A stretch of DNA of 64,000 nt from Dehalococcoides mccartyi. GTDB taxonomy: Bacteria; Chloroflexota; Dehalococcoidia; Dehalococcoidales; Dehalococcoidaceae. The translations under genes were made by a program, and so were the position numbers. Location of the stretch: NCBI RefSeq assembly GCF_001889305.1, contig NZ_CP013074.1, forward strand, positions 248,001 through 312,000. The letters are read 5' to 3'. Below are positions 6,397 through 22,034 of the stretch, piece after piece; within the stretch, counting starts at the first letter, position 1; every line of letters begins with the position of its first letter. Below the pieces are notes generated by a model, which saw only the letters and a list, made by a program, of their open reading frames with translations, was not told the origin of the DNA and did no database searches.

Positions 6397-6410
6397 GAAA
6401 AGGAGGAAAT

Positions 6411-8160: not shown

Positions 8161-8373
8161 ATGGGTAAGTACGCAAGCTGGAACGAATTCGAGAAGAATG
8201 TCCCCATCACCTACAAGGAAAAAGCCACTCCCGAGGCTTTCCGCACCGGAATGAACGGTATTGCACCGTCCGGGCTGAAGGTCAAAGAGGGGCGGGTAAA
8301 TCACTACCGCGATGGTGTGGATGGTAAGGGTGAGGTCATGGTCTCCGGCTACAAACGGGCCATGTTCGAATAG
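8161..8373 (+). CDS. Small MGKYA-family protein (paralogue 1)
   Basis: A 70-aa protein from ATG 8161 behind GAGGAGGTG. It is clearly related to the gene at 19543: both start MGKYA, share EF then PI-YKE/YRE, a T-E-F segment, GM then IAPSG-K-K, and end in AMF. The two copies bracket the structural region. No known family is recognised. Small, polar and without membrane segments, it may be a cytoplasmic or particle component. Confidence 0.7.
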   Translation: MGKYASWNEFEKNVPITYKEKATPEAFRTGMNGIAPSGLKVKEGRVNHYRDGVDGKGEVMVSGYKRAMFE

Positions 8374-8383
8374 CAATCTGGCC

Positions 8384-8475
8384 GCTTGATGTCTATCCAG
8401 ACGAGGGCACAGCCCCAATTGGTTTAACCGCTGTCGCGGCAGCGGTAAACCTGATAAAGCGGACCGACATCAGGC
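8384..8475 (+). ncRNA. Candidate structured RNA leader
   Basis: GCTTGATGTC (8384-8393) can pair with GACATCAGGC (8466-8475) with one G-U pair. Inside, GGTTTAACCGCTG (8421-8433) pairs with CAGCGGTAAACC (8440-8451) with one bulge. This fills the 129-bp gap before the methionine-rich genes, and the ribosome binding site follows. It does not match a riboswitch I recognise. It could be a translational control element or a small RNA. Confidence 0.35.
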
Positions 8476-8502
8476 TCCAACTTAGAAATTGAGGAGGAAA
8501 AG

Positions 8503-8715
8503 ATGTTCAAAACACAGCAACTGACCGGGCCGGTGGCACCAGGACAATTTAACCCAGCGCAGGTGAGTGGTCCTTCTAGTTATTATCCGACCCAGACGAC
8601 TGGGACCGACTGGACGAGTATGTTCTCGGCCATGATGCCAATGATCATGATGATCATGATGATGGCCATCCTTATGCCCATGTTGAAGGGCGTCACCGCG
8701 TCTGCCAAAGACTAA
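8503..8715 (+). CDS. Methionine-rich membrane-anchor protein (paralogue 1)
   Basis: A 70-aa protein: a polar, Gln/Pro/Thr-rich N-terminal half (residues 1-38), then a single hydrophobic span in which about half of the residues are methionine (MFSAMMPMIMMIMMMAILMP, about 41-60), then a short tail. The downstream gene is a close paralogue. The same MF-x-MPMIMM type anchor ends the proteins at 14365 and 16958. Strong ribosome binding site GAGGAGG. No family is recognised. Confidence 0.75.
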   Translation: MFKTQQLTGPVAPGQFNPAQVSGPSSYYPTQTTGTDWTSMFSAMMPMIMMIMMMAILMPMLKGVTASAKD

Positions 8716-8758
8716 AAATCTGACTTATCGTAAAAGACTTTGAGGAGGTAATCGAAAA

Positions 8759-8956
8759 ATGTTCACAGCACAGCAGTTCGCCGGCCAGCAAATAAGGCCG
8801 CAGCAATACCAGTATGGCACCGTCTCGGGTTATTACCCGGCACAAACCACCGACATGACCAGCATGTTCTCAGCCATGATGCCAATGATCATGATGATCA
8901 TGATGATGGCTATCCTTATGCCCATGATGAAGGGCATGACCAGTTCCAGCAAATAG
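8759..8956 (+). CDS. Methionine-rich membrane-anchor protein (paralogue 2)
   Basis: A 65-aa tandem paralogue of the preceding gene. MFTAQQFAG parallels MFKTQQLTG, SGYYPAQTT parallels SSYYPTQTT, and the methionine-rich span is nearly identical. The N-terminal halves differ more, so the duplication is not very recent and the span is under constraint. Ribosome binding site GAGGAGG. Possibly an abundant small membrane component, like a minor coat or membrane protein of a lipid-containing particle. That role is inference. Confidence 0.75.
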   Translation: MFTAQQFAGQQIRPQQYQYGTVSGYYPAQTTDMTSMFSAMMPMIMMIMMMAILMPMMKGMTSSSK

Positions 8957-8989
8957 CAGGCGCTTGAAATCTAGTAAGGGGGTTTTAAT

Positions 8990-9577
8990 ATGACCGAAAA
9001 AATTGTAACACAACAATATCCGGGGTATCCCGGCACGCGGCCTCCGAAGGGATGGGTGCCTCCCCTGGGACAATCGCTGACCCTGCTCGGAGTCTATGAC
9101 AACGAGTCGGGCTACTGGATGGGCTTGCCTCTCCAGGTGCTCAGGGAAGCTTTGCTTAATGCTGAGGCTCTTCAAACCGAGGACCGCATCGACGAACGGG
9201 ATAAAATTGAAGTCACTGTGCCGAATGTTTCCGCACAGGATGTGGTAAAAACCACCGAATTTGAGGTACCTTCCGGTGAGGTGTGGTTCCTTAACCGTCT
9301 CAACCTGATCACCGAGGCCGAAGTATCTGGCAACGTCCGTATCTCCAAGTTCCCGAAGGTCAGTGACATCGACAAGAAATACCTGGGTACCGACCAGGCA
9401 GCCGGCGCCGATACTGACTATGACCTTGCTTCTCCAGGGCAACTCGGAGCTGACCTAAGATTAGTAGGTGGGGACAAGATTACCGTTGTAGCCACGGTGA
9501 CAGCGGTCGGCGGCACCACGGCAGATCGCAAGGTCACCCTCAATCCCTATGGTCGCAAAGCGAAGCGGCTGGTATAA
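8990..9577 (+). CDS. Beta-rich hypothetical protein, candidate major structural component
   Basis: A 195-aa protein from ATG 8990 behind AAGGGGG. The N-terminus is Pro/Gly/Tyr-rich (YPGYPGTRPPKGW), followed by an amphipathic helix and, from about residue 65, alternating beta-strand patterns (KIEVTVPNV, TTEFEVPSGEVWFLNRLNLI, DKITVVATVTAVGG). No signal peptide or span. Its place just after the small membrane proteins and its jelly-roll-like strand pattern make it a candidate coat or spike protein. No sequence family is recognised. Confidence 0.6.
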   Translation: MTEKIVTQQYPGYPGTRPPKGWVPPLGQSLTLLGVYDNESGYWMGLPLQVLREALLNAEALQTEDRIDERDKIEVTVPNVSAQDVVKTTEFEVPSGEVWFLNRLNLITEAEVSGNVRISKFPKVSDIDKKYLGTDQAAGADTDYDLASPGQLGADLRLVGGDKITVVATVTAVGGTTADRKVTLNPYGRKAKRLV

Positions 9578-9594
9578 GCCATGGGAGGTGCGGG

Positions 9595-10122
9595 ATGCCC
9601 TATGCCATGGCACCAGAGGGATACAGGGCTGTACTAATAGGCTCAGCTACAAGTATTGAAGACCTGGGCACCTTCGCTACGCTTGAAGAAAGTTCGGCTG
9701 AAGGTGCTCTTTTTTTAATGCGACTCGATTTTACCGAGTTTCCTTCCGAGGAAGCACTAAACCAACTGGAACAGGCGTGCTTTGACGCCGGAGTCGAATT
9801 GTGGCCGGGCTATAGCCACGTTGTCTATGCCGATGTAAATCAGCCTGCAGTCTACTTTGCCTGGCAAAAAGGATTTGCCTGGTTGCCGATTATTATCGGT
9901 CTGCTGGTTACTACTGTTTTGCCGCCGCTGTTGGGTTCACTGGTTTGGTGGCTCATGCCGGAAGACTTGAAAAACCTGATTAGCGGTATCGTCAACCTGG
10001 GAATCATGCTGGTTGTCATGATCCTCGTTACCAAACTCGTGCCTTCGTTCACACCTGAGAAAGAAAAGGTGAAGAAGGTAAAGCAGGTGGAGCCGGAGAA
10101 ATTAGAAGGGGCAGCAGCATGA
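9595..10122 (+). CDS. Two-span membrane protein
   Basis: A 175-aa protein. Residues 1-85 form a soluble alpha/beta domain (YRAVLIGSATSIEDLGTFAT, then a C-terminal VELWPGYSHVVYADVNQPAVYF). Two hydrophobic segments follow (about 93-122 and 130-148), then a Lys/Glu-rich tail. It overlaps the next gene by ATGA. No family is recognised. Possibly part of a membrane complex with the next small membrane protein. Confidence 0.6.
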   Translation: MPYAMAPEGYRAVLIGSATSIEDLGTFATLEESSAEGALFLMRLDFTEFPSEEALNQLEQACFDAGVELWPGYSHVVYADVNQPAVYFAWQKGFAWLPIIIGLLVTTVLPPLLGSLVWWLMPEDLKNLISGIVNLGIMLVVMILVTKLVPSFTPEKEKVKKVKQVEPEKLEGAAA

Positions 10123-10292
10123 ATCAATACCCGCAAGACTATTACTACACACTGGCAGAGTATCAGGCTGCCCAATGGCAGGGTGTCCTGGGTACTTTAA
10201 TGGGAGTCGCCGTGCTGGTAGCCATGGCTGCCTGGGCTTTTTCACTGGTGAAGAAAGCTATCAAGGGTGAGGAGGTGAAGTACCCGCTATGA
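10119..10292 (+). CDS. Small single-span membrane protein
   Basis: A 57-aa frame linked to both neighbours by ATGA overlaps (10119-10122 and 10289-10292). The N-terminus is Tyr/Gln-rich (MNQYPQDYYYTLAEYQAAQW), followed by one hydrophobic span (about residues 24-43) and a basic tail. This is the same layout as the methionine-rich proteins at 8503 and 8759, but with an ordinary Ala/Val/Leu span. The ATGA coupling on both sides is good evidence that it is translated. Confidence 0.65.
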   Translation: MNQYPQDYYYTLAEYQAAQWQGVLGTLMGVAVLVAMAAWAFSLVKKAIKGEEVKYPL

Positions 10293-10843
10293 CCACTTCA
10301 CTTTCAATCTTGAGCGGTGAATTGGGCGATATCTTCTGGGACCTGCCTCCGGTAGTTTCCTATGTAACCGGAATGGATCTCGGATGCAGCATCTATGTGG
10401 CTAATCCAACAGAAGTCGAAAAAGAATACGCCCTGATGGCTCGACTTACCAGGAACGAGACTTTAATCAGCGAAGAAGCGCTGCCGGTATTTGGTTATAC
10501 CTGGTTCAAGGTCGCACCGGGAGAATTTATCAAGCTTAATGGAGCGTTACGCTTTGAAGAAAGTGACGCTAGCCTCGCGGTACTACTTGTCGAAAAGGAA
10601 ACCGAGGAAGTTACCGATTCGGTATCAACATATTTAGCGCAGGTATCGAGCAGTGTTCTCCCACCCTGGTTGGGAGGCTCAACCACAACTACAACAGATT
10701 GGAGTTCACTACTGGGGATGATGTTCCCGTTCCTGATGCTGGGGATGATAGCGGTTGCTTTGAAACCACAATCTGAAAAGAAGGAAAACATCTCTCAGCC
10801 CAAAGAAGAAAGGAAGCTATTACCCGCAGGGAGGCAAAGTTAA
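10289..10843 (+). CDS. Beta-rich protein with C-terminal membrane anchor
   Basis: A 184-aa protein. An extracellular-like beta domain (residues 20-125: IYVANPTEVEKEYALMARLT, then GYTWFKVAPGEFIKL) is followed by a Thr linker (GGSTTTTTDW) and a hydrophobic anchor with methionines (SLLGMMFPFLMLGMIAVAL, about 146-164), then a basic tail. The organisation (soluble domain, anchor, basic end) recurs in the N-terminal part of the 19845 product. No family is recognised. Confidence 0.6.
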   Translation: MTTSLSILSGELGDIFWDLPPVVSYVTGMDLGCSIYVANPTEVEKEYALMARLTRNETLISEEALPVFGYTWFKVAPGEFIKLNGALRFEESDASLAVLLVEKETEEVTDSVSTYLAQVSSSVLPPWLGGSTTTTTDWSSLLGMMFPFLMLGMIAVALKPQSEKKENISQPKEERKLLPAGRQS

Positions 10844-11310
10844 TGCCGGGCGAGTTCTACATTGAGAACAAAGCAGAGAGGCTCAGCCTTCAAAGCATAG
10901 AGGATGCGATAGCTACACTTGAAGGAAAACTGGATGCAGTTAAGAGCCAGATAGACAAGCTGGCAGGACAAAGTCCTATGGAAGGATCTTTCGCCGCAGG
11001 CTGGCAAGTTTCAGAGTCAGATGTTGTCTCCATAGGTGCTGTAGGGACCAGAAATAAAATACACGATCTCACCCTTAGCATCCATAATCTGGCAGGTACC
11101 CAGATAACGATAAGGCTATATAAGGCAGTGAATGGTATTGAACGGAAAGTATATGAGCAGGTTTTCGATGCCGGTTCCGATCCACCTGGTATACCGGTCA
11201 TCAACGGAAGCTGGGCGGTACATAACATTTTGCGAGTAACCCTCCAAAGCAATGAGGTTACCGATAACGGTAAAAGTGTGGATTACGACTACATGCTGGA
11301 AGCGATGTAA
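10843..11310 (+). CDS. Beta-sandwich-like protein (tandem paralogue 1)
   Basis: A 155-aa protein starting in TAATG of the preceding stop. A short N-terminal coiled-coil-like helix (LQSIEDAIATLEGKLDAVKS) precedes a beta domain shared with the next gene: SDVVSIGAVG, LTLSIHNLAG, ITIRLYKAVNGIERKVYEQ, then GSWAVHNILRVTLQS. The coiled coil suggests oligomerisation (often trimers in fibre and spike proteins). The next gene lacks it. No family is recognised. Confidence 0.6.
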   Translation: MPGEFYIENKAERLSLQSIEDAIATLEGKLDAVKSQIDKLAGQSPMEGSFAAGWQVSESDVVSIGAVGTRNKIHDLTLSIHNLAGTQITIRLYKAVNGIERKVYEQVFDAGSDPPGIPVINGSWAVHNILRVTLQSNEVTDNGKSVDYDYMLEAM

Positions 11311-11703
11311 ATGAGTTTACTTATTAAAAGTAGTGTTACCAGGTTGTTAGGAAATAAAGGAACAACAAACGCAAACTGGTATGCAGGGATCGGAACTTCC
11401 GGAGAAACCGGTAGTGATGTTGTGACCATCGGGATTCTCGGCAATTTCAAAAAGGTTCAGGCTTTATGGCTGAACATAGAAAATTTGGTGGATGGAGCAA
11501 TCGTTACTGTGAGGTTATATCACTCGATTAACAATATCGAAAAAAAGGTGCACGAGCAATCGTTCACCCGCGGAATAGATCCCGATGGTCTATGGATAAT
11601 CAGTGGTGCAATGGCGATTAGTGGGACACTCCGCTGTGAATTAAAGAGCGATAACTCCGGCGATACTGCTAAAGACATCAGCTGGGAGTGGGTTACCGAA
11701 TAG
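11311..11703 (+). CDS. Beta-sandwich-like protein (tandem paralogue 2)
   Basis: A 130-aa paralogue of the preceding protein: GSDVVTIGILG, LWLNIENLVDG, VTVRLYHSINNIEKKVHEQ, then SGAMAISGTLRCELKS align across the whole beta domain. The N-terminal coiled coil is missing. The two genes abut directly (stop 11310, ATG 11311). The pair probably forms a hetero-oligomer or decorates the same structure. Confidence 0.6.
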   Translation: MSLLIKSSVTRLLGNKGTTNANWYAGIGTSGETGSDVVTIGILGNFKKVQALWLNIENLVDGAIVTVRLYHSINNIEKKVHEQSFTRGIDPDGLWIISGAMAISGTLRCELKSDNSGDTAKDISWEWVTE

Positions 11704-11713
11704 GAAGGATGCA

Positions 11714-12868
11714 ATGAGTCTGTTGTATGGGAAATCGGGAGAGCCGGTTCAAATCGGGCCGTTGATTGGTCGACCCGGGAGTGGCGATATTGCCAAGTCA
11801 GTGCTCAAGACGCTTGAAATCGACTTCTTCCCGGCTGTTGCTCATGAAGAAAATATAAGTGACCCGGGAGAAGCAGCGGCAGAGGAAGAAGGTTTGGTAG
11901 TACCTATACCTCTACTTGAAGAAGACAGTGTTGTAACAGCACCGGATGATCCGGATAAAGTTTATAAACACGATGATGACCTGCTGATAGAGACGGATGT
12001 TACGGCAGACGCATTGGATTCACCTGAAATTGCCGATGAATACACATCCGGGGCAGATAATGCCATTGGAGGCACTTCGACAACCTGGTTGGCGCAGACA
12101 TTTACTACTGATGGAATCGGTTACACCGTACTGGGTGTTCGCGTCATGTTATACCGTACCTCGACCATCGGAACGATAGCCGTTGCGATTAAAGCTACTG
12201 ATGTTAATGGCCATCCGACAGGAGCGGACCTGGTATCGGCAACCATCGATGGCTCAATAACGGACGCCATTCAAACTGAAAATTCGGGTGATTTCTATGA
12301 CTTCATGTTCACTGCGGGCTATGCTCTTACCCCGGCGACAAAGTATGCCATCGTCGTAACCGTATCTTCCGGAACTATTTACTGGAGATATAACTCATCC
12401 GGCTCATTTGCGGGCGGTAACCGGGAACACAGCACCAACTCCGGTGGCAGCTGGACAACTTACACTGCCCACGATTATATGTTTCAAAATATTAAAACCG
12501 AAATGGGAGACGTTGAGCCATTTCCGACAGTACCAGCTGTGGGCGACGGGTTATATGTGGGAAATGCTTCTCAGTTTGATACGGTACGGTTGTGGGTGAA
12601 CCGGCAAGGGCTTGGGACGTTCACCATCACCGCCAAATACTACAACGGCAGTACCTGGATTGCTCTGACGCTTTTAGGTAGCGGAGACCAGATATTCAGT
12701 TATAAACGCACGGGACATCGCTGGCTTTCGTTTATAAGGCCAGCGGACTGGGCAATGTTCACCGTAGACGGGAACAGTCTTTACTGGGTCAAATTTGAAG
12801 TTGCTACCTATTCGAGCATGACCCAGATGCCAAAGATTGGGAATGTCTCGATAGGAGTGTACTCGTGA
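11714..12868 (+). CDS. Large beta-rich protein with two lectin-like modules
   Basis: A 384-aa protein. Residues 1-115 are acidic and look unstructured. Residues about 115-260 form a module (TWLAQTFTTDGIGYTVLGVR, then GHPTGADLVSATIDG, TKYAIVVTVSSGTIYWRYN) of the type common in surface and phage tail proteins. Residues 275-384 form a second module (FDTVRLWVNRQGLGTFTITA, YNGSTWIAL, LYWVKFEVA). It overlaps the next gene by GTGA. Its role is probably exposed binding or adhesion. Confidence 0.6.
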   Translation: MSLLYGKSGEPVQIGPLIGRPGSGDIAKSVLKTLEIDFFPAVAHEENISDPGEAAAEEEGLVVPIPLLEEDSVVTAPDDPDKVYKHDDDLLIETDVTADALDSPEIADEYTSGADNAIGGTSTTWLAQTFTTDGIGYTVLGVRVMLYRTSTIGTIAVAIKATDVNGHPTGADLVSATIDGSITDAIQTENSGDFYDFMFTAGYALTPATKYAIVVTVSSGTIYWRYNSSGSFAGGNREHSTNSGGSWTTYTAHDYMFQNIKTEMGDVEPFPTVPAVGDGLYVGNASQFDTVRLWVNRQGLGTFTITAKYYNGSTWIALTLLGSGDQIFSYKRTGHRWLSFIRPADWAMFTVDGNSLYWVKFEVATYSSMTQMPKIGNVSIGVYS

Positions 12869-13563
12869 TAAGACGATTTGTGGATGAAATTCAGGGTTGG
12901 CTACTGAAGAAATCCAGTTTACAACTGCATGTTCCGCACATGGCGATGTATCTGGATATCGAACTCAAGATGCCTGATGGAAGAATTACGGACCATCGAT
13001 ACCAGCGCAGCAAGAGCTTTGTCAGAAATGCCTATAACCTGTTTTTCCATACTATTGCAGGTTATCCGATGAGTGATGGGACATGGGGAGATGGCTATGT
13101 GAATTTGAAAAACACCAACGGATCCTTAAGTTCCGGTTCCTATCGGGGTTTTTGTTTTTCTACCGATAACAACGGGCAGGGATTTCTTTCACCCGGCAGT
13201 GCGAACGATTTTGGTATCGTCGTTGGTACGGGAACAGGGGCAGAATCTTTTGATGGTTACGCATTAGGCACCAAGATCGCCATTGGCAACGGTGTAGGGC
13301 AATTATACACATTGAGGAGTGAGGATCCTGTCGATTCATATAGTAGCCTTACCAAGAAAAGAACCTTGGTACGCTACTTTAATAATAACTCCGGGGCGAC
13401 TATTAGCCTTGGAGAAATCGGACTGATAGCACGCATTATCACCGGTGGAGATAGCTCTATGTATGCGTTGTTCAGCCGTGACCTCATTACGCCGGTCGTG
13501 GATATTTTGGACAAAGCGCAGTTGAAAGTTACTTACACCATCAGTCTGGTATATCCGTCATAG
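12865..13563 (+). CDS. QRSKSFVRNAYN-family structural protein (paralogue 1)
   Basis: A 232-aa protein from GTG 12865 in the preceding stop. It is homologous to the next gene over its length. Shared parts are an N-terminal amphipathic helix, QRSKSFVRNAYNL, a Gly-rich beta middle with GTGTGAES, a RYFNNNSGA motif, and an ending FSRDLITPV then KAQLKVTYTISLVYPS. The beta-rich, Gly-rich character fits a capsid, fibre or surface subunit. No family is recognised. Confidence 0.6.
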   Translation: MIRRFVDEIQGWLLKKSSLQLHVPHMAMYLDIELKMPDGRITDHRYQRSKSFVRNAYNLFFHTIAGYPMSDGTWGDGYVNLKNTNGSLSSGSYRGFCFSTDNNGQGFLSPGSANDFGIVVGTGTGAESFDGYALGTKIAIGNGVGQLYTLRSEDPVDSYSSLTKKRTLVRYFNNNSGATISLGEIGLIARIITGGDSSMYALFSRDLITPVVDILDKAQLKVTYTISLVYPS

Positions 13564-13572
13564 GGGGAAGGG

Positions 13573-14301
13573 ATGATAGATTATATCGCCGATAAAATAG
13601 CCAGGAAAACAGCTCATAATCTCCATCTGCCATATATCGAAGCTCATCTGGAAGTTGAGATGACGAGAGATGGAAAGAGCCTGTTGCATAGATGCCAGCG
13701 GAGTAAGAGTTTCGTCCGTAACGCCTACAACATATTGTTTTCCCAGGCGGCGGCGGCTGAAGCTGATGATACGACTTTCGGACCGGGCTTAATCAACGCG
13801 AAAGATGTCGCCGGCACTATCGCTAAAAGAGATACGCCAATCAGCTGGATACCCAATGATGTCTCTTCGTTAGGAAGCGGATTTCGGGGAAACGAGGGCA
13901 TATCTAACCACGGGATAGTATTGGGACTGGGAACCGGCGCCGAGAGTATTGAAGATTATTATCTGAGTGGTGCGTTAATTCCTAACGGTAATGGCTCAGG
14001 ACAGATTAACTACAACCCAACTGAGGCTCTCATCAAAGTATGGTCGGCTGGAACCAAGACGCTATCGAATTCCATCAAACGGTATTTCAACAATAACAGC
14101 GGTGCCCAGATCAATGGTTGGGGAGAGATTATTCTAATTGGCAAGATTAACTTCGCCTATTCGTACGGCAGTCTAACCGGCTGGTGGTACGACACTTATA
14201 ACGCAGTTTTTAGCCGGGATTTATTACCAGCACCGGTAAATATACCCGATAAAGCCCAGGTCAAAGTAATGTACACGATTTCGCTGGTTTATCCCTCATA
14301 A
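13573..14301 (+). CDS. QRSKSFVRNAYN-family structural protein (paralogue 2)
   Basis: A 242-aa paralogue of the preceding gene: CQRSKSFVRNAYNI, GLGTGAESIEDY, RYFNNNSGAQ, FSRDLLPAPV and VMYTISLVYPS align in order. The conserved C-terminal strand (TISLVYPS) ends both proteins exactly, which suggests it is buried in an assembly. Ribosome binding site GGGGGAAGGG. Confidence 0.6.
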   Translation: MIDYIADKIARKTAHNLHLPYIEAHLEVEMTRDGKSLLHRCQRSKSFVRNAYNILFSQAAAAEADDTTFGPGLINAKDVAGTIAKRDTPISWIPNDVSSLGSGFRGNEGISNHGIVLGLGTGAESIEDYYLSGALIPNGNGSGQINYNPTEALIKVWSAGTKTLSNSIKRYFNNNSGAQINGWGEIILIGKINFAYSYGSLTGWWYDTYNAVFSRDLLPAPVNIPDKAQVKVMYTISLVYPS

Positions 14302-14364
14302 GGAGTATGAAGTGATAAATTGCATAGATTTACGCTACCGGAAATGGTTAATAGGAGCAAGACG

Positions 14365-15621
14365 ATGAGATATGCGTTGATATCGAAAGGGCTAACCCTT
14401 TCTGATCTTATAGCGGAAGCAAAGAAAGTTGGCGCTCGTGATATTACCAGGACGAAGCTTGTTGAGCAGGTCTTTTGCGAGATGGATGAGAATCAGGCAA
14501 AAGCTCTGGCGAAAATTTCCGGTCTGGTAGTAAAACCTGTTAAAGCATACCTTACCAACCAGGTCGTTTCCGTAGCGCAACCTGTCGAGACCATCTCTGA
14601 TGTATTTTATCTATTGCGTTCCTACTTTTCACCGCCGCTCACTGGTACTGGTTTAACCGTAGCGGTGTTGGACAGTGGTATTCGTAAGACCCACGAATCA
14701 CTTCAGAACAAGGTGATTTACGAGGCTAACTATACTGATTCGCCTTCCGCTAGCGACGTCTTCGGACATGGGACACAGGTAGCTTTCATGATTGCCGGTG
14801 GCATGCATGCGCTGGGATATAAAGCTGGCATCTCACCAGGTGCGACCTTGATGAATATTAAGGTTATCAGTGACGAGGGTATCGGCAACGATGAAGACAT
14901 CGTAATGGGCATCGATCGTGTTTGCGAACTCGCGGAGCAAGCCAGAAGTAAAGGATTTTGGGCGACTGATGAACTCTATCCCAATGTTATCAACCTATCT
15001 CTGGGTGCCGAAGACGACGGCGATCCTGATAATCCGGTAAGAGCTGCTTGCCGCAAAGCCAGTACGGTATATGGATTAGACGTTATCGCTGCTGCAGGTA
15101 ACTCTGGTCCCAATATGACCACGATAATGCTACCAGCTTGCGATCCGGAAGTGATCGCGGTAGGAGCAGTAGAAACTACCGGCGATCTGATCATCTGGGA
15201 AAAATCTTCCCGCGGCCCAACTGTGCAGGGAGAAACCAAGCCTGATTTCGTTATCTGGGGTACTAACCTGGAAATGGCCAGCAACAAGGCTGACGATGAA
15301 TATCTAACCAAATCAGGGACTAGCTTTGCAGCTCCTATGCTGGCTGGACTTACCGGACTTCTCTGGGAAAGCGGGCGGCGGGCTTATGGTGAGAGTTGGT
15401 CGTTCCGCTGGACGGATGCCCGCCAGTATGCTCTCTATTTTTCGACCAAACCATCGGATGCACCCGTTAATAAGGATAATGCTTATGGTTATGGTCTACC
15501 GGCTATGGGAACGATGTTGGGAGAAGTAGCCCAGGTGAGCTCTTCGAACCTGCAAGGAACCGAAATGTTCCCGATGATAATGATGATGGCGCTGATGTCG
15601 GCTCTTACGGGAGGTGTTTAA
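14365..15621 (+). CDS. Subtilisin-family (S8) serine protease with Met-rich C-terminal anchor
   Basis: About 418 aa from ATG 14365, chosen because AGGAG lies at 14353-14357; an in-frame TTG at 14320 lacks a ribosome binding site. Residues 1-70 resemble an I9-type propeptide. The catalytic triad is visible: Asp in VAVLDSGI (about 103), His in GHGTQVA (about 135), oxyanion Asn in AAGNSG (about 246) and Ser in SGTSFAAP (about 320). The last 20 residues (MFPMIMMMALMSALTGG) are a short Met-rich hydrophobic anchor like that of the 8503, 8759 and 16958 products. It probably processes structural proteins or degrades the cell surface. Confidence 0.9.
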   Translation: MRYALISKGLTLSDLIAEAKKVGARDITRTKLVEQVFCEMDENQAKALAKISGLVVKPVKAYLTNQVVSVAQPVETISDVFYLLRSYFSPPLTGTGLTVAVLDSGIRKTHESLQNKVIYEANYTDSPSASDVFGHGTQVAFMIAGGMHALGYKAGISPGATLMNIKVISDEGIGNDEDIVMGIDRVCELAEQARSKGFWATDELYPNVINLSLGAEDDGDPDNPVRAACRKASTVYGLDVIAAAGNSGPNMTTIMLPACDPEVIAVGAVETTGDLIIWEKSSRGPTVQGETKPDFVIWGTNLEMASNKADDEYLTKSGTSFAAPMLAGLTGLLWESGRRAYGESWSFRWTDARQYALYFSTKPSDAPVNKDNAYGYGLPAMGTMLGEVAQVSSSNLQGTEMFPMIMMMALMSALTGGV

Positions 15622-15947
15622 TGGATAGATTTTATGTGGGACTAGTGGCTTTGGCGGGAGGTCTAGTTGCTGCCCTTTTAGGATGGCTCGATTCGAAAGA
15701 GCCGTTTGATGGACGTAAGTTTAGCGGCTCAGCCATTCGTTCTCTGATTGCAGCTGCTGTGTTTACGGTCGGCTACCAGCTATCGGACGGTATAAATGCG
15801 CTGGATTTGTTTTATGCCTTTCTGGGCGGGGCTGGTATCGACGTTATAGGGAACCGGGTTGCAGGCAGTTTCGGCAATGGGAACTTCCCTTTATCTAACG
15901 GCAAAGATACCAATAACACAGAAGAGCCGCAAGAACTCAAGGAGTAA
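15621..15947 (+). CDS. Small membrane protein, holin-like in layout
   Basis: A 108-aa protein starting in TAATGG of the protease stop. Three hydrophobic segments (about residues 5-22, 38-52 and 62-80) are followed by a hydrophilic acidic tail (EEPQELKE). Small size, several spans and a charged tail are holin-like, but no recognisable endolysin is next to it, and no family is recognised. It may instead anchor the structural complex. Confidence 0.5.
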   Translation: MDRFYVGLVALAGGLVAALLGWLDSKEPFDGRKFSGSAIRSLIAAAVFTVGYQLSDGINALDLFYAFLGGAGIDVIGNRVAGSFGNGNFPLSNGKDTNNTEEPQELKE

Positions 15948-15949
15948 TC

Positions 15950-16336
15950 ATGGCGCTATATGCAGATATCATCGAGATAGTCGCCCCCAGCCAGGCTGCT
16001 GCAGGGAACAAGGTAGACATTACCATTAAGGTAAAGAATACCTACTCTGCGGTTATAAGCATCATGATAGGCGGCGCTTTAGAATACGGCGTCTCACCCT
16101 GGCCGGGGATCAATGTCCCTGAGAACTGGGCGAACGTCAACGGCGGTGCCACATATTCATCTAGTGCTTCTTTTGTAATGCCGGACCGACGAGTAACAAT
16201 ACACGCTTATAGCTACTGGTATGGTTCCGATGGCTACTGGTATTTCGATGACGAGTTTACCAAATCGGTGGAAATTACCGCATTATCAGAGCCATCGATC
16301 TCGGATTTCCGTATCGCTGACTTTATCAAGGTTTAG
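15950..16336 (+). CDS. Ig-like beta protein with C-terminal SISDF tag
   Basis: A 128-aa beta-rich protein (IIEIVAPSQAAAGNKVDITI opens an Ig-like strand pattern). It ends in EPSISDFRIADFIKV, which matches the last 15 residues of the next protein (DPSITEFKISDFAKV). The body of the two is otherwise only weakly alike, so the tail looks like a conserved sorting or docking peptide. No membrane span. Confidence 0.6.
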   Translation: MALYADIIEIVAPSQAAAGNKVDITIKVKNTYSAVISIMIGGALEYGVSPWPGINVPENWANVNGGATYSSSASFVMPDRRVTIHAYSYWYGSDGYWYFDDEFTKSVEITALSEPSISDFRIADFIKV

Positions 16337-16346
16337 GAGGAAAACT

Positions 16347-16949
16347 ATGGCACTCAAAACATTGGATTTAAATCTGGGATGGTTCAAGCTGCTCGAAGAT
16401 GATTCTGTCCAGCAGATGGAAGATCCCGCTGTATCAGGCTGGTATATTGACTCAAGAACAGGACAGCGTGTCTTCTATGATTCCACTGCCGGGAAATTCT
16501 TTACTCTCGCGGGTGGTGTTTATATTCCGCTGGGATACATGAATCCCGCACCGAAGCAAGTAGCCGTGGCCCCTGGCGACCGGCTTAAAATTACTTTGTC
16601 TTTCAAATACACCGGACCAGCGATAACAGGGATCACCGGATACTACAGCATTGGTATCAACGGGATATTCGGTTTTGACGAGAGGCTCACACAGAGGACT
16701 TCGTTTAATGTTCCTCAGGTAACCACCCCTCCGTCATCTCCGAACGTGAGTGATTCCTATACTTTTACTATTCCGACCGGTATTGGTACCAACTGGGATG
16801 ACATCTACGTTAAGATTTTTGGTGGCAGCCCCAGCATCGGTGGAGAAGCAACCACATCATTCCTGTTTGGCTACGAGAATGCCTTGACTATTGCCGGTGT
16901 TGATCCCAGTATCACGGAGTTCAAGATTAGCGACTTTGCCAAGGTCTAG
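16347..16949 (+). CDS. Ig-like beta protein with C-terminal SITEF tag
   Basis: A 200-aa protein from ATG 16347 behind TAGGAGG. Residues 20-65 (VSGWYIDSRTGQRVFYD) resemble a small beta module. Residues 75-180 carry an Ig-like pattern (APGDRLKITLSFKYTG) shared with the next protein (VGDTVRVTVSFKYIVG). It ends in the DPSITEFKISDFAKV tag also found at the end of the preceding protein. Likely a surface or virion component. Confidence 0.6.
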   Translation: MALKTLDLNLGWFKLLEDDSVQQMEDPAVSGWYIDSRTGQRVFYDSTAGKFFTLAGGVYIPLGYMNPAPKQVAVAPGDRLKITLSFKYTGPAITGITGYYSIGINGIFGFDERLTQRTSFNVPQVTTPPSSPNVSDSYTFTIPTGIGTNWDDIYVKIFGGSPSIGGEATTSFLFGYENALTIAGVDPSITEFKISDFAKV

Positions 16950-16957
16950 GAGGAAAC

Positions 16958-17428
16958 ATGACCCTGGATATAGTCCTGGCGCCGATGGCGCTGGAACAGA
17001 AAACATTTAACGTTGGGGATACTGTCAGGGTGACCGTCTCCTTTAAATATATCGTTGGTGTAAATAAGACGGTAAGACTGATGGCAGGTCCTTACTATAC
17101 CAATCTATTCGGTAAGCACATGGTTGATCAGTGTGTGGGGGACGCCGATGTAGCGTTGGTTCCTGCCTCGACTCCAGCAGAACAAACGGCTACAGTCGAC
17201 TTCATCCTTATACCGAAAGCGACCGGCGGTATTGATGATGGCACTTACGGCTTAAGGGTTTGGATCGAGGATACTAATGCTTTGGCTGAGCAGGATAACG
17301 TGGTTATAGTAACCGGCAATCCCAGTAGCAGCGATATGTTCAGCTCCATCATGCCCATGATAATGATGCTCATGATGATGGGAATGATCATGCCGATGAC
17401 CCAGCAGATGGGTGAGGGAGCCGAATAA
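16958..17428 (+). CDS. Ig-like beta protein with Met-rich C-terminal anchor
   Basis: A 156-aa protein. Residues 10-120 are an Ig-like beta domain (VRVTVSFKY, ATVDFILIPKA, GTYGLRVWIED). The end is a Met-rich membrane span (MFSSIMPMIMMLMMMGMIMP) nearly identical in pattern to the products at 8503 and 8759, then a short acidic tail. Topology is therefore a soluble domain anchored by its C-terminus. It shares TAATG with the recombinase gene downstream. Confidence 0.65.
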   Translation: MTLDIVLAPMALEQKTFNVGDTVRVTVSFKYIVGVNKTVRLMAGPYYTNLFGKHMVDQCVGDADVALVPASTPAEQTATVDFILIPKATGGIDDGTYGLRVWIEDTNALAEQDNVVIVTGNPSSSDMFSSIMPMIMMLMMMGMIMPMTQQMGEGAE

Positions 17429-18102
17429 TGGTGAAAGCCTACCTCGAAATACAGGAGATTGAACAGCTCGAACAGGCTGCAGAATATTTGCGGGATAAGC
17501 TGCTAATTCGCCTTTTATTTCATTTGGGTTGTCGGGTATCCGAAGCGCTGGGAATTAAAACGAGCGATATTGATTTTAAGCAGGGTTTAGTTACAATCCA
17601 GTATCTTAAGCAACGAATCAAGCTTTCCTGCCCGGAGTGTAATGCCAGGCTAGGAAAAGAGCACAAATATTGCCCGGTATGCGGGAAAAAGGTAGACAAG
17701 GCCTTATCTGATGAAAAAGAGCACCGTAAATTCCGTACTCTGCCCTTGGATGAAGATACATTGAAGATGCTGAAGGAGTATATAGGTCGGGGAGGAGCTA
17801 ATCACCAAAATAAATTGATATTTGCTTTAACTCGTCACCGAGCTTGGCAGATTATCCGGGATTGTGCTGAAAGAGCTCAACTCCCGCACCTGGTAAATTC
17901 TGAAACCGGTAAGGAGCACAATGTAAGTCCTCACCGCCTTCGAGATGCCTTCGCCGTCCATGCGGTCAAACTGGATGATTCAGGTGATGGTATCAGGCTG
18001 CTTCAAGAACACTTGGGACACCAGAGCATTGTTACGACGATGAAATACCGGAAGGTATCCGGTGAAGAGCAGCGTGAGTGGTATGAAAAATTATGGAATT
18101 GA
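17428..18102 (+). CDS. Minimal tyrosine recombinase with inserted zinc ribbon
   Basis: A 224-aa catalytic domain of the XerC/lambda-integrase family. Visible residues: Arg36 in GCRVSEAL, His169-x-x-Arg172 in HRLRDAF, His198 in LGHQS and Tyr207 in MKYRKV. A four-Cys zinc ribbon (C68, C71, C82, C85: CPEC...CPVC) is inserted between the beta strands after box I. The usual N-terminal SAM-like DNA-binding domain is absent. The gene is embedded in the structural operon, overlapping its neighbour, rather than next to the regulatory switch. It may act in integration, dimer resolution or DNA inversion. Confidence 0.85.
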   Translation: MVKAYLEIQEIEQLEQAAEYLRDKLLIRLLFHLGCRVSEALGIKTSDIDFKQGLVTIQYLKQRIKLSCPECNARLGKEHKYCPVCGKKVDKALSDEKEHRKFRTLPLDEDTLKMLKEYIGRGGANHQNKLIFALTRHRAWQIIRDCAERAQLPHLVNSETGKEHNVSPHRLRDAFAVHAVKLDDSGDGIRLLQEHLGHQSIVTTMKYRKVSGEEQREWYEKLWN

Positions 18103-18105
18103 GCC

Positions 18106-18309
18106 ATGGAAGAAGAATTTGAAGACGAGGTACTCACTTTCATGATGAAGGCTATTATCGTAACTGGTTGTATCGCGGTGCTTATGCCTTCACTAATGAA
18201 TGCTTTCGCAACCGGGCAAGCGGTTGCTCCATTATCGAACAGGTTGTACCTTGATCCTGATACCGGAAACTACTGGGTGTATGTACCTGAAGAGGAGGCA
18301 AGCAAATGA
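18106..18309 (+). CDS. Small single-span membrane protein
   Basis: A 67-aa protein with an acidic N-terminus (MEEEFEDEV), one hydrophobic span (about residues 12-34, with MM and M-P-S-L-M), and a polar tail (LYLDPDTGNYWVYVPEEE). The layout resembles the other small anchors of the operon, reversed relative to them. It overlaps the next gene by ATGA. No family is recognised. Confidence 0.55.
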   Translation: MEEEFEDEVLTFMMKAIIVTGCIAVLMPSLMNAFATGQAVAPLSNRLYLDPDTGNYWVYVPEEEASK

Positions 18310-18698
18310 CTTGGAAAAAGGTGATGCTCGAGGGTGATGTAGCTGTCCTATCTGATACGGTACCTGAAAATGTCGACTTCAACGCTGCGTCGGCAGGTGT
18401 AGCTGCCGGGGCATCACGACAGGATCATAAACACGATGTCCCTGAATCTCTGGTCGGTGATTTGGCGGCGGTCGATGGCCAGGCGGCAGCAGTCGGAACA
18501 GCAAACAAGTTTGTTAGGGCCGATCACCGGCACGCACTGGGTCCGCTACAAGCTAATCTTGACTGTAACCAGAAGCAGCTTGTTGGCCAGGTGATACATG
18601 TTGCCGCGGCAGCTCCTAATTCTGGAACCGAGGTCGAGGGGCAAATCTACTATAACTCCACTGGTGGTGACAAACATCCCTATATTTGGGTGCCTTAA
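18306..18698 (+). CDS. Tail-fibre-like protein (MTWKK group)
   Basis: A 130-aa protein. The segment AASAGVAAGASRQDHKHDVP, repeated more loosely as AVGTANKFVRADHRHALGPL, is the type of collar repeat seen in phage tail-fibre and baseplate proteins, where the DHKH/DHRH histidines may bind metal. The end (GQIYYNSTGGDKHPYIWVP) also resembles fibre tips. The N-terminus MTWKKVMLEGD matches MSWKKMMLDGD of the 18941 product. This is the clearest phage-structural signal in the operon. Confidence 0.65.
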   Translation: MTWKKVMLEGDVAVLSDTVPENVDFNAASAGVAAGASRQDHKHDVPESLVGDLAAVDGQAAAVGTANKFVRADHRHALGPLQANLDCNQKQLVGQVIHVAAAAPNSGTEVEGQIYYNSTGGDKHPYIWVP

Positions 18699-18707
18699 GG
18701 AGAAAAG

Positions 18708-18944
18708 ATGAAAACAAAAGACCTTTTAGAACAGTTTGAAAAGACCTACCGTGAGGAGAAACAAAAAGAAGCGGAAGAGTTGCATAATGCCCTGGTTTCC
18801 GTTTTATCCGAGCATAAGGCCGAAATACAAACTGTATTGTACGTCCTTGAGATGGTTAAGTTCGAACTGCTTGAGGATAGATTTAAACAGTTGTTTGCAA
18901 GTGCGCCAAAACCTGGAGAAATACGTTTCGGGAAGCCTGAATGA
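18708..18944 (+). CDS. Small helical hypothetical protein
   Basis: A 78-aa protein, Glu/Lys-rich and helical (LEQFEKTYREEKQKEAEELH, then an amphipathic helix), probably a coiled coil. Its end overlaps the next gene by ATGA. No family is recognised. Located between two MxWKK-type proteins, it may be a chaperone or assembly factor for them, by context only. Confidence 0.5.
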   Translation: MKTKDLLEQFEKTYREEKQKEAEELHNALVSVLSEHKAEIQTVLYVLEMVKFELLEDRFKQLFASAPKPGEIRFGKPE

Positions 18945-19243
18945 GCTGGAAGAAGATGATGCTGGACGGTGATGCTGGAGGTGGACCCGCTTTGAAGGGA
19001 ACGGTGGCTGTCGATCCGCCTAGTATTACCAAGGCTTCGACAGAAAACGTGGATGTCAGTGTGAGCGGGGTATTGACCACCCACAAAGTCTACGTCCAAT
19101 GTCAGTCGGACCTTGAGAACGGTCTAGTCTGCATTGCTGCTTACTGTCCGACCAATGGAACCCTCAGATTCCGGATCAGCAACTGGTCTTCTTCAGCTAT
19201 AGACGGAGCTCAAAGAACATGGGCTTATCAGGCTTATACATAG
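18941..19243 (+). CDS. Beta-rich protein (MSWKK group)
   Basis: A 100-aa protein whose first 11 residues (MSWKKMMLDGD) match those of the 18306 product. The rest is a small beta domain (STENVDVSVSGVLTTHKVYV, then NGTLRFRISNWSSS) with two cysteines. It appears to be a second fibre-like or receptor-facing protein using the same N-terminal attachment peptide. No family is recognised. Confidence 0.55.
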   Translation: MSWKKMMLDGDAGGGPALKGTVAVDPPSITKASTENVDVSVSGVLTTHKVYVQCQSDLENGLVCIAAYCPTNGTLRFRISNWSSSAIDGAQRTWAYQAYT

Positions 19244-19244
19244 A

Positions 19245-19550
19245 ATGGCATGGAAGAAATTGATACTGCAAAAATCAAATCAATCAGGACGATTTGAGGT
19301 AATCGGCCAATGTAATCGTTGTGGCCAGTGCTGCATTTGCTGGATTTATAACCAACCTGATCAGCCGGCAGAGGTATTACCAAAAAAAGGTTGGTGCCCT
19401 GATTTGGATCAAGAGTCGGGACGCTGTCGGATATGGGAAAACAGACCTGAAGGGTGCCGTAACTTTCCAACTCTGAGAGATTTCGACTTGGGAGCGGTAC
19501 CCGACAAGTGTGGATTCAGGCTGGTATCAGGAGGTAATGAAAATGGGTAA
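19245..19550 (+). CDS. Cysteine-cluster (YkgJ-like) protein with MAWKK N-terminus
   Basis: A 101-aa protein. Residues 24-90 contain the YkgJ-type cysteine pattern (CNRCGQCC...C, then GWCPDLDQESGRCRIWENRP, CRNFP), a family thought to bind zinc or iron-sulfur clusters. The first 9 residues (MAWKKLILQ) match the MTWKK and MSWKK starts of the two neighbouring fibre-like proteins, which normal YkgJ proteins lack. It overlaps the next gene by 8 nt. It may modify or mature its neighbours. Confidence 0.65.
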   Translation: MAWKKLILQKSNQSGRFEVIGQCNRCGQCCICWIYNQPDQPAEVLPKKGWCPDLDQESGRCRIWENRPEGCRNFPTLRDFDLGAVPDKCGFRLVSGGNENG

Positions 19551-19848
19551 ATATGCGAATCACGAAGAATTTGGGATCAACGCTCCGATAAACTACCGGG
19601 AAGATTCTACTAGCGAGTCTTTCCTTAAAGGTATGTCGGTAATTGCTCCATCGGGTATGAAGCCGAAGGTCTTGCGAGGTAAAAAGTTCGAGGAGAAAAC
19701 CGATTTCAAGGCTTCCGCACGGTGGCACAAGAATTTCGATTTAGCGATGTTCGGTGGCTCAGATATCGGGACGTCAAATTATGAATCTAATCAAATGAAT
19801 TTAGAAGGAAAAATCAATGGCGTAAAAAGAATACCCGGGAGGCAATGA
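19543..19848 (+). CDS. MGKYA-family protein (paralogue 2)
   Basis: A 101-aa protein from ATG 19543 behind GGAGGT. It is homologous to the 70-aa product of 8161 over the first 75 residues (MGKYA, EF, PINYRE, GM then IAPSGMKPK, DLAMF), with about 27 extra C-terminal residues. ATGA overlap joins it to the DUF192-ArdC gene. No known family is recognised. Confidence 0.65.
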   Translation: MGKYANHEEFGINAPINYREDSTSESFLKGMSVIAPSGMKPKVLRGKKFEEKTDFKASARWHKNFDLAMFGGSDIGTSNYESNQMNLEGKINGVKRIPGRQ

Positions 19849-21497
19849 TGGCAGGACAGGTCAAAATAACGATTGGAGATAAAGAGTGGTTAGCTTCCCT
19901 ATCCAGCACATACTGGGAGTTGGTGCAAGGACTTGGCGGTATTCCCGAGATGGAGGCCGGTACGGGAATGCTATTCGATTTGGGTTTTACTCAGGATATC
20001 ACCGTAACCACTGAGCCGATGCTTTTCCCGCTGGATATTGCCTTCTTATCCGAGGACATGGTAATTACCGAGATCTATCGCAATGTTCAGCCGGGATATC
20101 TTGTACATGCAACGATACCTCCTCGTTATTTCATTGAGGTTAATGCCGGTGAGCTTGAAGGTATAGAAGAAGGCGCCCAAGTATCGTTTGAATTACTGAC
20201 CCTTGTAAGCACCGTAGAAGCCTCTGATTGGATGACTCCGATGATTTCCCTTATGGGTTTTACTCTAATGGGTGTTTTCGCAGTAAGCCTGGTACGTGAC
20301 TTGGTGAAAGAACAACCGGAGGAGGTCAGGCATCTACGGTTGGTTAAGTCCAGTCGATCTGATGCTGGCTTGCTAGATCCCCGACGTTTTCCAAAAAGGA
20401 CCGAATCACTGAACAGGCTCGGAGCTTATGATGTGGTTCATGTACACGATGATGGCGATCTAACTGTCCTCAGCCGCGGCAAGCTGTATGTAGTAACTAC
20501 CGGAGGTGAAGTCTTCAAGCAGGAGCCCGATTCTTATGACAGCCCAAACCAGGTAGCTGGAGCATGTGAGAGGATTTCGCCACAATATTACGGTCTATTG
20601 AGGTGGGTTGGTGTTCCGTTGCCGGACTACAGCTTCGCGATTGAATCCGAAGTCAAAGAACGCAAGATTGACGATGTTTTGAAACGGCTCAAGGAAGGGG
20701 TCGATGGTATCCAGCAAAGCGACAACTTTAGGACATTCTTGCTTACCATGTCCAAGTTTCACGATTACAGCATCGGTAACTTGATACTGATCATGCTCCA
20801 GAACCCTGACGCTACCCGGGTCGCCGGTTTCAGTACTTGGAAAGGTTTATATCGTTGGGTTAAAAAAGGCGAAAAGGGAATTGCTATTCTGGCTCCGTGT
20901 ATGCCTCCTAAGAAAAAGATACTTGAACCTTCTGAAACTGAGACTGCACAGGATGAAGAGGAAACGGAGATCCGACCGATCTATTTCAAAGTGGTCCACG
21001 TTTTTGATGTTAGTCAAACAGAAGGGAAACCTCTTCCCGAATTTGAAGTTCCACCTCTTACCGGTGAAGCAAATGAAAAATTATTTGAGCAAGTTATGCA
21101 TCTGGCAGAATCACAAGGCCTTGAGGTCAGTTTTGAATCAAAGCCGGATCAGGATCCGGATATCAAGGGTTACTACACGGGCAAAAGTATCTGGGTTCGA
21201 CCGGAAGAATCACGAGCTCAGCAATTAAAAACACTGTTGCATGAAGTTGCTCATTATTACTCTGAGGGGGTATTTCGCATACCACGGAGTGATGCCGAAA
21301 CCATTGCCGAAAGCGTGGCATTTACTATCGGCGCTCATTATGGTTTTGACACCGGTGCCCGCTCATTCCCCTATGTAGCAATCTGGTCCAAGGATAAGAA
21401 AGTTCTTGAAGCTAACTTGGCTGCTATACGCAAAGTAGCAGACAAGATATTCGATGGTCTTGAGCAAACCGCCAGAAAATTGATAGAGGTAGCCTAA
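19845..21497 (+). CDS. DUF192 - membrane span - ArdC-like - zincin metallopeptidase fusion
   Basis: A 550-aa fusion. Residues about 40-118 resemble DUF192 (GMLFDLG, PLDIAFLSEDMVI, then RYFIEVNAGEL and GIEEGAQVSF). A hydrophobic span follows (about 131-151). Residues about 265-390 match the ArdC N-terminal DNA-binding domain (SKFHDYSIGNLILIM, FSTWKGLYRWVKKGEKGIAI). Residues 400-550 are a zincin with HEVAH at 466-470 and a downstream Glu in AETIAESVAF. ArdC proteins protect incoming DNA from restriction. Membrane anchoring and the DUF192 part are unusual and suggest delivery at entry or packaging in the particle. Confidence 0.8.
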   Translation: MMAGQVKITIGDKEWLASLSSTYWELVQGLGGIPEMEAGTGMLFDLGFTQDITVTTEPMLFPLDIAFLSEDMVITEIYRNVQPGYLVHATIPPRYFIEVNAGELEGIEEGAQVSFELLTLVSTVEASDWMTPMISLMGFTLMGVFAVSLVRDLVKEQPEEVRHLRLVKSSRSDAGLLDPRRFPKRTESLNRLGAYDVVHVHDDGDLTVLSRGKLYVVTTGGEVFKQEPDSYDSPNQVAGACERISPQYYGLLRWVGVPLPDYSFAIESEVKERKIDDVLKRLKEGVDGIQQSDNFRTFLLTMSKFHDYSIGNLILIMLQNPDATRVAGFSTWKGLYRWVKKGEKGIAILAPCMPPKKKILEPSETETAQDEEETEIRPIYFKVVHVFDVSQTEGKPLPEFEVPPLTGEANEKLFEQVMHLAESQGLEVSFESKPDQDPDIKGYYTGKSIWVRPEESRAQQLKTLLHEVAHYYSEGVFRIPRSDAETIAESVAFTIGAHYGFDTGARSFPYVAIWSKDKKVLEANLAAIRKVADKIFDGLEQTARKLIEVA

Positions 21498-21500
21498 CTC

Positions 21501-22034
21501 ATGGTAATCCGACTAGCACCTACAAGAGGTGGATTCCTCCGTCCATTTGGCTGCGGGTGGTTTATTCGGGAATACCTTATGGGTAAAGGCCCTGAAGGTT
21601 CAAGGAAAATAGATCCTGAGCGAGGTGCTCCCCAGGCTGACATCAACTTCGAATACAAGGAGGCTTTAGCACGTGCTACAGCCAGGGAGCGAGCTGAGCG
21701 AATCATAAGTAACATGGTGGTCAAAGGTGCTGATGTTTCCGAAGAAGAAGCCGAGAAAATTTACCAGCGTGAGTTGAAACGAGTCTCCCGCAAGTTCACG
21801 CATATGCGGTATCATTCTTTTCTCATGTATTTTGGGGTACTAAAAAGGCTGGGATGGGTTGAAGTCACTCATAAAACTGAAGCTTCAACAATCCAAGATA
21901 ACTATTCCCCGGCTCCGGAGCGGACTTACTACCGACTTACGAAAACTGGCATAAAAGCCGGTGATGATCTCTGGTCTAATCCACTCTTCACATTGTATCC
22001 CGAGGTCGGCCCCAGCCACACGAAGAGAGCTTAA
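21501..22034 (+). CDS. Hypothetical protein, last gene of the operon
   Basis: A 177-aa protein. The C-terminal half looks like a winged helix (SFLMYFGVLKRLGWVEVTHK, then RTYYRLTKTG), preceded by a charged helical region (ARATARERAERI). The N-terminus (LAPTRGGFLRPFGCGWFIREYL) is compact. It begins 4 nt after the ArdC fusion. It could be a DNA-binding accessory of that protein. No terminator is visible in the 55 bp before the convergent TIR gene. Confidence 0.55.
   Translation: MVIRLAPTRGGFLRPFGCGWFIREYLMGKGPEGSRKIDPERGAPQADINFEYKEALARATARERAERIISNMVVKGADVSEEEAEKIYQRELKRVSRKFTHMRYHSFLMYFGVLKRLGWVEVTHKTEASTIQDNYSPAPERTYYRLTKTGIKAGDDLWSNPLFTLYPEVGPSHTKRA

Follow-up and report, generated by a model that had tools for sequence, protein, structure and literature searches.

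An integrative element of Dehalococcoides mccartyi with a late operon that may encode a membrane-bounded transfer particle

The chromosome of Dehalococcoides mccartyi (NZ_CP013074.1, a complete genome of 1,521,287 bp) carries a complete integrative element of 37,663 bp, and the late half of this element is a long operon of membrane, beta-rich and fiber-like genes in which no capsid or packaging gene is recognized. The window analyzed here is the stretch of 64,000 nucleotides at bases 248001-312000 of that genome; positions refer to the window, with negative numbers to its left, and the element runs from 2,148 bases before the window to position 35523. In our best explanation, to which we give a probability of about one half, this is a temperate element that produces a transfer particle of its own, bounded by a membrane and probably without a capsid. 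The element would then behave as temperate viruses or infectious vesicle plasmids do, and the family to which it belongs may represent an unrecognized virus, or transfer particle, wrapped in a membrane and aiding the passage of DNA among cells of these pollutant-dechlorinating bacteria; the evidence does not support placing it in any named virus family.

The late operon (8104-22034) has 26 plausible genes, all on the plus strand and together 98% coding, and 15 of its 25 junctions overlap or are at most 4 bp apart. A first-pass annotation, made from the letters of the window, had described a long one-strand operon of about 30 mostly overlapping genes, a description which stands apart from the count. 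Transmembrane is abbreviated as TM and methionine-rich as Met-rich in the following list.

8104..8373, +: conserved small protein with a paralogue at 19510-19848
8503..8715, +: first of two small membrane proteins with a Met-rich tail anchor
8759..8956, +: second small membrane protein of this kind
8990..9577, +: beta-rich candidate structural protein, the most conserved; low-confidence, mostly-strand model
9595..10122, +: protein with two predicted membrane segments
10119..10292, +: small one-TM protein
10289..10843, +: protein with an N-terminal domain and a C-terminal membrane anchor
10843..11310, +: coiled-coil and beta domain protein; the G226 homolog has a long coiled coil
11311..11703, +: duplicate of the 10843 beta domain
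11714..12868, +: fiber-like protein, the fastest diverging; no Pfam or PHROG match
12865..13563, +: putative fiber/adhesin protein R1; homologs beside tail genes in a tailed-phage contig
13573..14301, +: putative fiber/adhesin protein R2; AlphaFold2 model
14320..15621, +: subtilase (PF00082, E=7e-36) with propeptide-like N-terminus and C-terminal Met-rich anchor, without signal peptide
15621..15947, +: small membrane protein in the holin slot, by hydropathy
15950..16336, +: immunoglobulin-like (Ig-like) beta protein, fold judged by eye
16347..16949, +: beta-rich protein; a ribosome-binding site before 16347 places the true start there and not at 16221
16958..17428, +: Ig-like domain (fold by eye) with a Met-rich C-terminal anchor
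17428..18102, +: short tyrosine recombinase (PF00589) with a zinc ribbon insert
18106..19550, +: optional cassette of a TM protein, a fiber-like protein, a coiled coil and a CxxCxxCC protein
19845..21497, +: DUF192-TM-ArdC-M78 membrane protein
21501..22034, +: backbone protein common to small islands

Half of the anchor residues are Met in the C-terminal anchors of the 8503, 8759 and 16958 products, and a weaker anchor of this kind ends the subtilase. By hydropathy, which is a crude predictor of signals and anchors, the beta-rich proteins have no N-terminal signal-like segment and several of them end in a hydrophobic Met-rich anchor, with flanking charges too weak to fix the topology. Two duplications are present: the 12865 and 13573 products are 44-45% identical, and the 10843 and 11311 products form one family. 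The subtilase retains its Asp/His/Ser residues and Asn, all invariant among relatives, and its closest relatives outside come from Dehalococcoidales assemblies. The tyrosine recombinase, which lacks the usual N-terminal domain, occurs in large elements and small islands alike, and the cassette at 18106-19550 is present in G361 and G069a and absent from the sister element cp2, from G002 and from G069b. The Met-rich anchors, the duplicated beta-rich proteins, the subtilase and the ArdC fusion had all been read correctly in the first pass, to which we add the tyrosine recombinase within the operon, the integrase and left end outside the window, and the extension of the element to about 35.5 kb with a sliding clamp.

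The 12865/13573 family has tandem relatives in the tailed-phage contig IMGVR_UViG_3300027863_000011 (L063 7191-8546), where they stand beside a tape-measure gene and an amidase and are thus part of real tailed virions, and its relative in G262 matches a PHROG tail fiber (E=6e-4). Fiber-type adhesins, a trait of tailed phages, are therefore present in the element. The AlphaFold2 model of the 13573 product reaches a predicted local distance difference test (pLDDT) of 77.6 and a predicted template-modeling score (pTM) of 0.79, and among predicted viral structures it comes closest, though with low TM-scores, to proteins of tailed viruses, to tail fibers and to proteins from enveloped archaeal viruses of filamentous shape. 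A comparison with capsid folds had been proposed in the first pass: 13573 gave this good model, which appears fiber-like and not of a capsid fold, and 8990 gave a poor one. Profile searches of the 8990 product, the 12865/13573 family and the 10289 product against PDB returned no significant match. In the G226 element the adhesin slot holds a repetitive fibronectin-like protein of 1867 aa (L045 12054-17657), and a 934-aa protein of the same element (L046 6506-9310) contains an intein with a LAGLIDADG homing endonuclease.

The gene 3' of the subtilase in cp2 is a clear holin (PHROG 1299, E=6e-18); the same slot holds a different small membrane protein in the window and short hydrophobic proteins in other elements, so that the possible holin of the first pass is weak in the window copy and strong in its cp2 counterpart. 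The murB domain was found in none of the 11 genomes of the family Dehalococcoidaceae and in 10 of 14 controls. With murB absent, a peptidoglycan endolysin would have no target, which makes subtilase and holin a plausible wall-opening pair on the surface layer (S-layer), and the subtilase may replace the endolysin by acting on that layer. In the 19845 product both domains of the ArdC family are present, namely ArdC-N (PF08401, E=3e-14) and a metalloprotease domain (PF06114, E=0.0015, below its cut-off). The DUF192-TM protein occurs without ArdC in G262 and with a different long C-terminus in G226; hence the ArdC part looks like an effector on a structural membrane protein.

In agreement with the first pass, Pfam and PHROGs scans of the element's proteins found no HK97 or other capsid, portal, terminase, tape measure or FtsK/HerA protein. 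The packaging ATPase of FtsK/HerA type that marks PRD1-like viruses and sphaerolipoviruses is missing from the element, whose sole AAA+ protein is RuvB-like and whose other P-loop gene is the primase-helicase. Two candidates were considered for these roles: the 5305 product is disfavored as a packaging ATPase by its RuvB likeness, and the 26420 product was rejected as terminase or portal because it is a sliding clamp (PF02768, PF02767). The VirD4-type coupling ATPase PF02534, the one coupling family covered, occurs in 0 of the 11 family genomes, and Pfam scans of the element's proteins revealed no relaxase. Homologs of the pleolipovirus spike, internal membrane protein and NTPase were looked for as well, and the membrane proteins tested had no PHROG, Pfam or viral-contig match of this sort.

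The region is an integrative mobile element, with a serine integrase, a recombination directionality factor (RDF), attachment (att) cores and an empty site. The core GCCCACCAT is identical at -2148 and 35515, from which the length of 37,663 bp follows; the tRNA-Val site is unoccupied in the related genome G002, with left-flank homology ending at the tRNA end and right-flank homology starting at window 35508. The outer half sites of the element are GTACAGTA and TACTGTAC, which would form a facing inverted repeat in the excised circle. The integrase adjoins the window on the left, with its final codons running into the 3' end of the tRNA-Val gene. The features of the element outside the late operon and the cargo are the following, HTH standing for helix-turn-helix.

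1..35523, no strand: integrated element, part inside the window, from att cores and the empty G002 site
-2154..-601, outside the window: large serine integrase (Resolvase, Recombinase, zinc ribbon)
-576..353, - (1..353 in the window, 3' part): ImmA/IrrE-like (M78) protease gene; Peptidase_M78 E=0.008, weak
357..752, -: XRE repressor-like regulator, from sequence, divergent to 911
911..1153, +: XRE regulator in Cro-like position; HTH_3 E=7e-11
1273..2253, +: RDF, Gp3-like; PF18897 E=6e-50
2303..4498, +: primase-helicase (DUF3854); PF12965 E=1e-21, PHROG DNA primase
4967..5314, +: DnaJ-domain protein; PF00226 E=4e-11
5305..6237, +: AAA+ ATPase, RuvB/clamp-loader-like, not FtsK/HerA
6411..7232, +: HTH protein with Met-rich tail, kept in most elements
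25671..26276, +: backbone protein, sigma-factor-like by eye, no Pfam match
26420..27679, +: DNA polymerase III beta-like sliding clamp; PF02768, PF02767
28263..29497, +: trio of small conserved genes that closes the backbone on the right
35515..35523, no strand: attR core GCCCACCAT

The early genes named in the first pass (RDF, primase, AAA+ and XRE) are thus confirmed by Pfam matches, with a DnaJ protein besides, and its view of a phage- or plasmid-like element is borne out by the integrase, the RDF, the att cores, the empty site and repeated insertions at tRNA genes. Sister elements stand at tRNA-Asn (cp2), tRNA-Ala, tRNA-Val and tRNA-Gln, the integrase lying beside the tRNA in every element whose left end was read and whose tRNA could be found; for G178, whose left end was read, no tRNA was detected. 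Long att repeats were not found at the ends of cp2 and G262, and their right ends are therefore approximate.

Of 393 genomes sampled from the class, 13 encode a homolog of the 8990 product; within the family 7 of the 11 genomes do so, with 14 copies in all and at most three in any one genome. Sampling across the phylum brought in no further genomes, and no homolog was found in phage and plasmid records. Identity in this protein is 74-83% among close elements and 42-52% in remote ones from other orders of Dehalococcoidia, of which the compact element of G262 (about 25 kb) has the same gene set and few extra genes. The operon is not a chance arrangement, because its gene order is kept in at least nine elements besides that of the window and because the ratio of nonsynonymous to synonymous substitution (Ka/Ks, given only where Ks is unsaturated, in comparisons within the genus) is 0.00-0.18 for early and late genes alike, both between the two copies of this genome (that of the window and cp2) and between the window copy and that of G002. 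Judged by these ratios, the operon is under purifying selection. In all elements read to the left end it is accompanied by integrase, RDF and replication genes, and it is absent from related genomes. Identity varies with the class of gene, from 45% in the integrase and 89-99% in the replication genes to 66-83% in most structural genes and 29-42% in the adhesin candidates 11714, 12865 and 13573; the first of these is 29-32% identical to its sister copies, against 66-83% for its neighbors. Strong divergence is the usual pattern for parts that meet a receptor. This mosaic suggests recent exchange between elements.

A second class of island has an integrase, an HTH gene, the same short tyrosine recombinase, the 21501 and 25671 proteins and the clamp, without primase, RDF or late operon. 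Four such islands have the full backbone set, and a fifth (G200) is broken and rearranged, with no recognized clamp. Their copies of the 21501 protein form a diverged group (47-51% versus 72-100% identity), which indicates a separate lineage and not recent loss. The island of G001 (L078 3105-19174) occupies the same tRNA-Val gene, has cores 16.07 kb apart and five backbone genes in common with the element, and carries no late operon and a reductive-dehalogenase-like gene that is apparently shortened at its N-terminus. The other four small islands with this backbone, one of them rearranged, are those of L081, L082, L083 and L084, with unrelated cargo nearby such as cobalamin or cysteine genes. 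That the small islands are satellites of the large element is put forward only as a hypothesis.

Taken together, these observations can be arranged into one possible course of events. By means of its large serine integrase the element integrates where a tRNA gene ends (3'), and it carries an RDF, an ImmA/XRE switch and replication genes of its own; once it is excised and replicated, the operon would be expressed. The beta proteins with Met-rich tail anchors may then stud the host membrane together with the two-TM protein, while the 11714, 12865 and 13573 products would serve as variable fibers that bind the surface layer of the next host. The DUF192-TM-ArdC protein might hold its ArdC domain on the DNA side, and thus enter with the DNA and blunt restriction. 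DNA would be enclosed by budding or vesiculation and not pumped by a packaging motor, and the holin-slot protein and the subtilase would open the peptidoglycan-free envelope, the protease standing in for an endolysin. Small islands that share the integrase type, the tyrosine recombinase, the 21501 and 25671 proteins and the clamp may ride in the same particles.

Between the lipid-containing particle and the element-borne surface structure proposed in the first pass, the evidence tilts to the particle: the fibers are of phage type, the lysis slot of the sister copy holds a holin, N-terminal signals are missing, and the adhesins are the most variable proteins. The particle itself, a new coat and enclosed DNA are hypothetical. 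Several points weigh against a membrane-bounded particle. Neither a particle nor excision or expression of the element was observed; a holin points to lysis, which agrees poorly with a vesicle formed by budding; a signal-peptide spike was not seen; and no homolog of the proteins of pleolipoviruses or other enveloped viruses was found. The fold matches of 13573 reach TM-scores of only 0.3-0.46 on the query, its fold search of PDB gave no match below E=0.001, and the 8990 model, built from five relatives, has a pLDDT of 45, too poor to exclude a capsid fold, the jelly roll of PRD1-like viruses and sphaerolipoviruses included. Among viral contigs the operon occurs in only one, of 76.5 kb, whose name suggests a sequenced isolate, and spacers of two arrays of clustered regularly interspaced short palindromic repeats (CRISPR), 10 from the own genome and 61 from G124, match the elements only at chance level. 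The array of the window's genome (L071, about 10725-11380) consists of 11 repeats of GTATTCCCCACGCGTGTGGGGGTGAACCG. A bolder version, which we put forward with considerable reserve, would see here a new lineage of bacterial viruses without capsid or motor, with membrane particles, phage-type fibers and release by holin and S-layer protease from peptidoglycan-free hosts, and carrying satellite islands, some with reductive dehalogenase genes.

The alternative that survives best, which we consider unlikely, is a genuine virion built on a novel capsid, possibly with an internal membrane inside it in the manner of PRD1-like viruses or sphaerolipoviruses, whose coat would be made of the 8990 product with that of 10289 or 10843. 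In its favor, 8990 is better conserved than any other structural candidate and consists mostly of beta strand, tail-anchored proteins without signal peptides suit cytoplasmic assembly, and holin and protease suit lytic release; but the FtsK/HerA packaging ATPase is lacking, and 8990 matches no PDB, Pfam or PHROGs profile. Rather doubtful is also an element-encoded surface apparatus that binds or fuses neighboring cells and passes DNA by contact, as in conjugation. Many membrane proteins are indeed encoded, ArdC is typical of conjugative elements and travels with the DNA (PMC5512222), and for the archaeal pT26-2 family an unknown DNA transfer system of membrane proteins has been proposed (PMC6972569). 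However, neither the PF02534 coupling ATPase (in the 11 genomes) nor a relaxase (in the Pfam scans of the element) was found, and the adhesins are of phage type and without signal peptides, with a holin in the sister copy.

Much less probable is a phage satellite for which a tailed prophage would supply head and tail, the element contributing only its own fibers and lysis genes. The window's genome does carry a portal gene elsewhere, at about 1.02 Mb, and a Siphoviridae-like Dehalococcoides prophage induced by starvation is on record (Waller 2012, as reported in PMC3462421). Yet the portal domain is absent from six of the seven element-bearing family genomes, three of which hold two or three copies of the element, in a test that covers one portal family and in which helpers may be transient; an obligate tailed helper is therefore unlikely. 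A large dedicated membrane-protein operon is, moreover, not the habit of satellites. Least probable of all is a domesticated or cargo surface structure that serves the host cell and is unlinked to transfer: the sites of cp2 and G002 are orthologous (91% identity), which means that one copy has not moved, but in every element read to its left end the operon comes together with integrase, RDF and replication genes, and it is absent from related genomes and has no signal peptides.

Besides backbone and late operon, the elements carry variable cargo at three places, after 7496, after 21501 and after 29012; that of cp2 comprises nickel/metal genes and a type III restriction pair. The cargo of the window is listed below.

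22090..25404, -: TIR protein with DSR1-like C-terminus (TIR_2; PADLOC Dsr1 E=3e-215)
29586..35427, no strand: DNA methyltransferase and putative defense genes

In the TIR protein the Dsr1 profile is matched over positions 283-1225, the TIR domain taking the place of the profile's N-terminal part. A perfect 18-bp palindrome, GCTTGGCATCAGCACCTT/AAGGTGCTGATGCCAAGC at 29543-29578, lies between the backbone and the methyltransferase cargo, and to the right of the element, outside it, window 43550-44917 encodes a reductive-dehalogenase-like protein with a twin-arginine translocation (TAT) signal.

Several known systems resemble the proposed membrane-bounded particle or its parts. One such kind is formed by the Pleolipoviridae and plasmavirus L2. 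Pleolipoviruses have capsid-less virions with a spike, a membrane protein and an AAA NTPase (PMC5867852), and the element is like them in its membrane-protein module and AAA-type NTPase, in the integrase that some of them have and in hosts without peptidoglycan; it differs in that no sequence relation was found and in its holin-slot gene, subtilase, tailed-phage-like fibers and lack of a signal-peptide spike. The archaeal pT26-2 plasmids and the vesicle plasmid pR1SE are also integrative, with a conserved block of unknown membrane proteins thought to carry DNA between cells, but they belong to another domain of life, no shared families were detected, and no fiber or lysis genes are described for them in PMC6972569, on whose general description the comparison rests. 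The ArdC polyvalent proteins (PMC5512222) likewise join ArdC-N to a metalloprotease domain, whereas the ArdC of the element is preceded by DUF192 and a membrane segment.

Among elements of the same hosts, the Siphoviridae-like prophage (Waller 2012, as far as PMC3462421 reports it) is likewise temperate, but it is tailed, and the element encodes no portal, capsid, terminase or tape measure. The ssrA and tRNA islands of Dehalococcoides (McMurdie 2009, 2011; PMC2764846, PMC3146451), among them a tRNA-Val island in strain 195 (PMC2764846), are serine-integrase islands at small stable RNA genes of Dehalococcoidia as well. They were described without a transfer apparatus, an unknown host or phage vehicle having to be assumed as their mover (PMC3146451); to such islands the element adds a phage-like late operon of 26 genes and its own replication genes. 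For the movement of reductive dehalogenation genes between Dehalococcoides cells, the element is a candidate vehicle that is self-contained and resident in these very hosts, and the link can be tested through the small backbone-sharing islands, of which one carries a dehalogenase gene. If the particle exists, it would be a membrane-bounded vehicle with an unknown coat and a lysis module adapted to peptidoglycan-free hosts, and would give a function to some 20 protein families that have no Pfam or PHROGs name.

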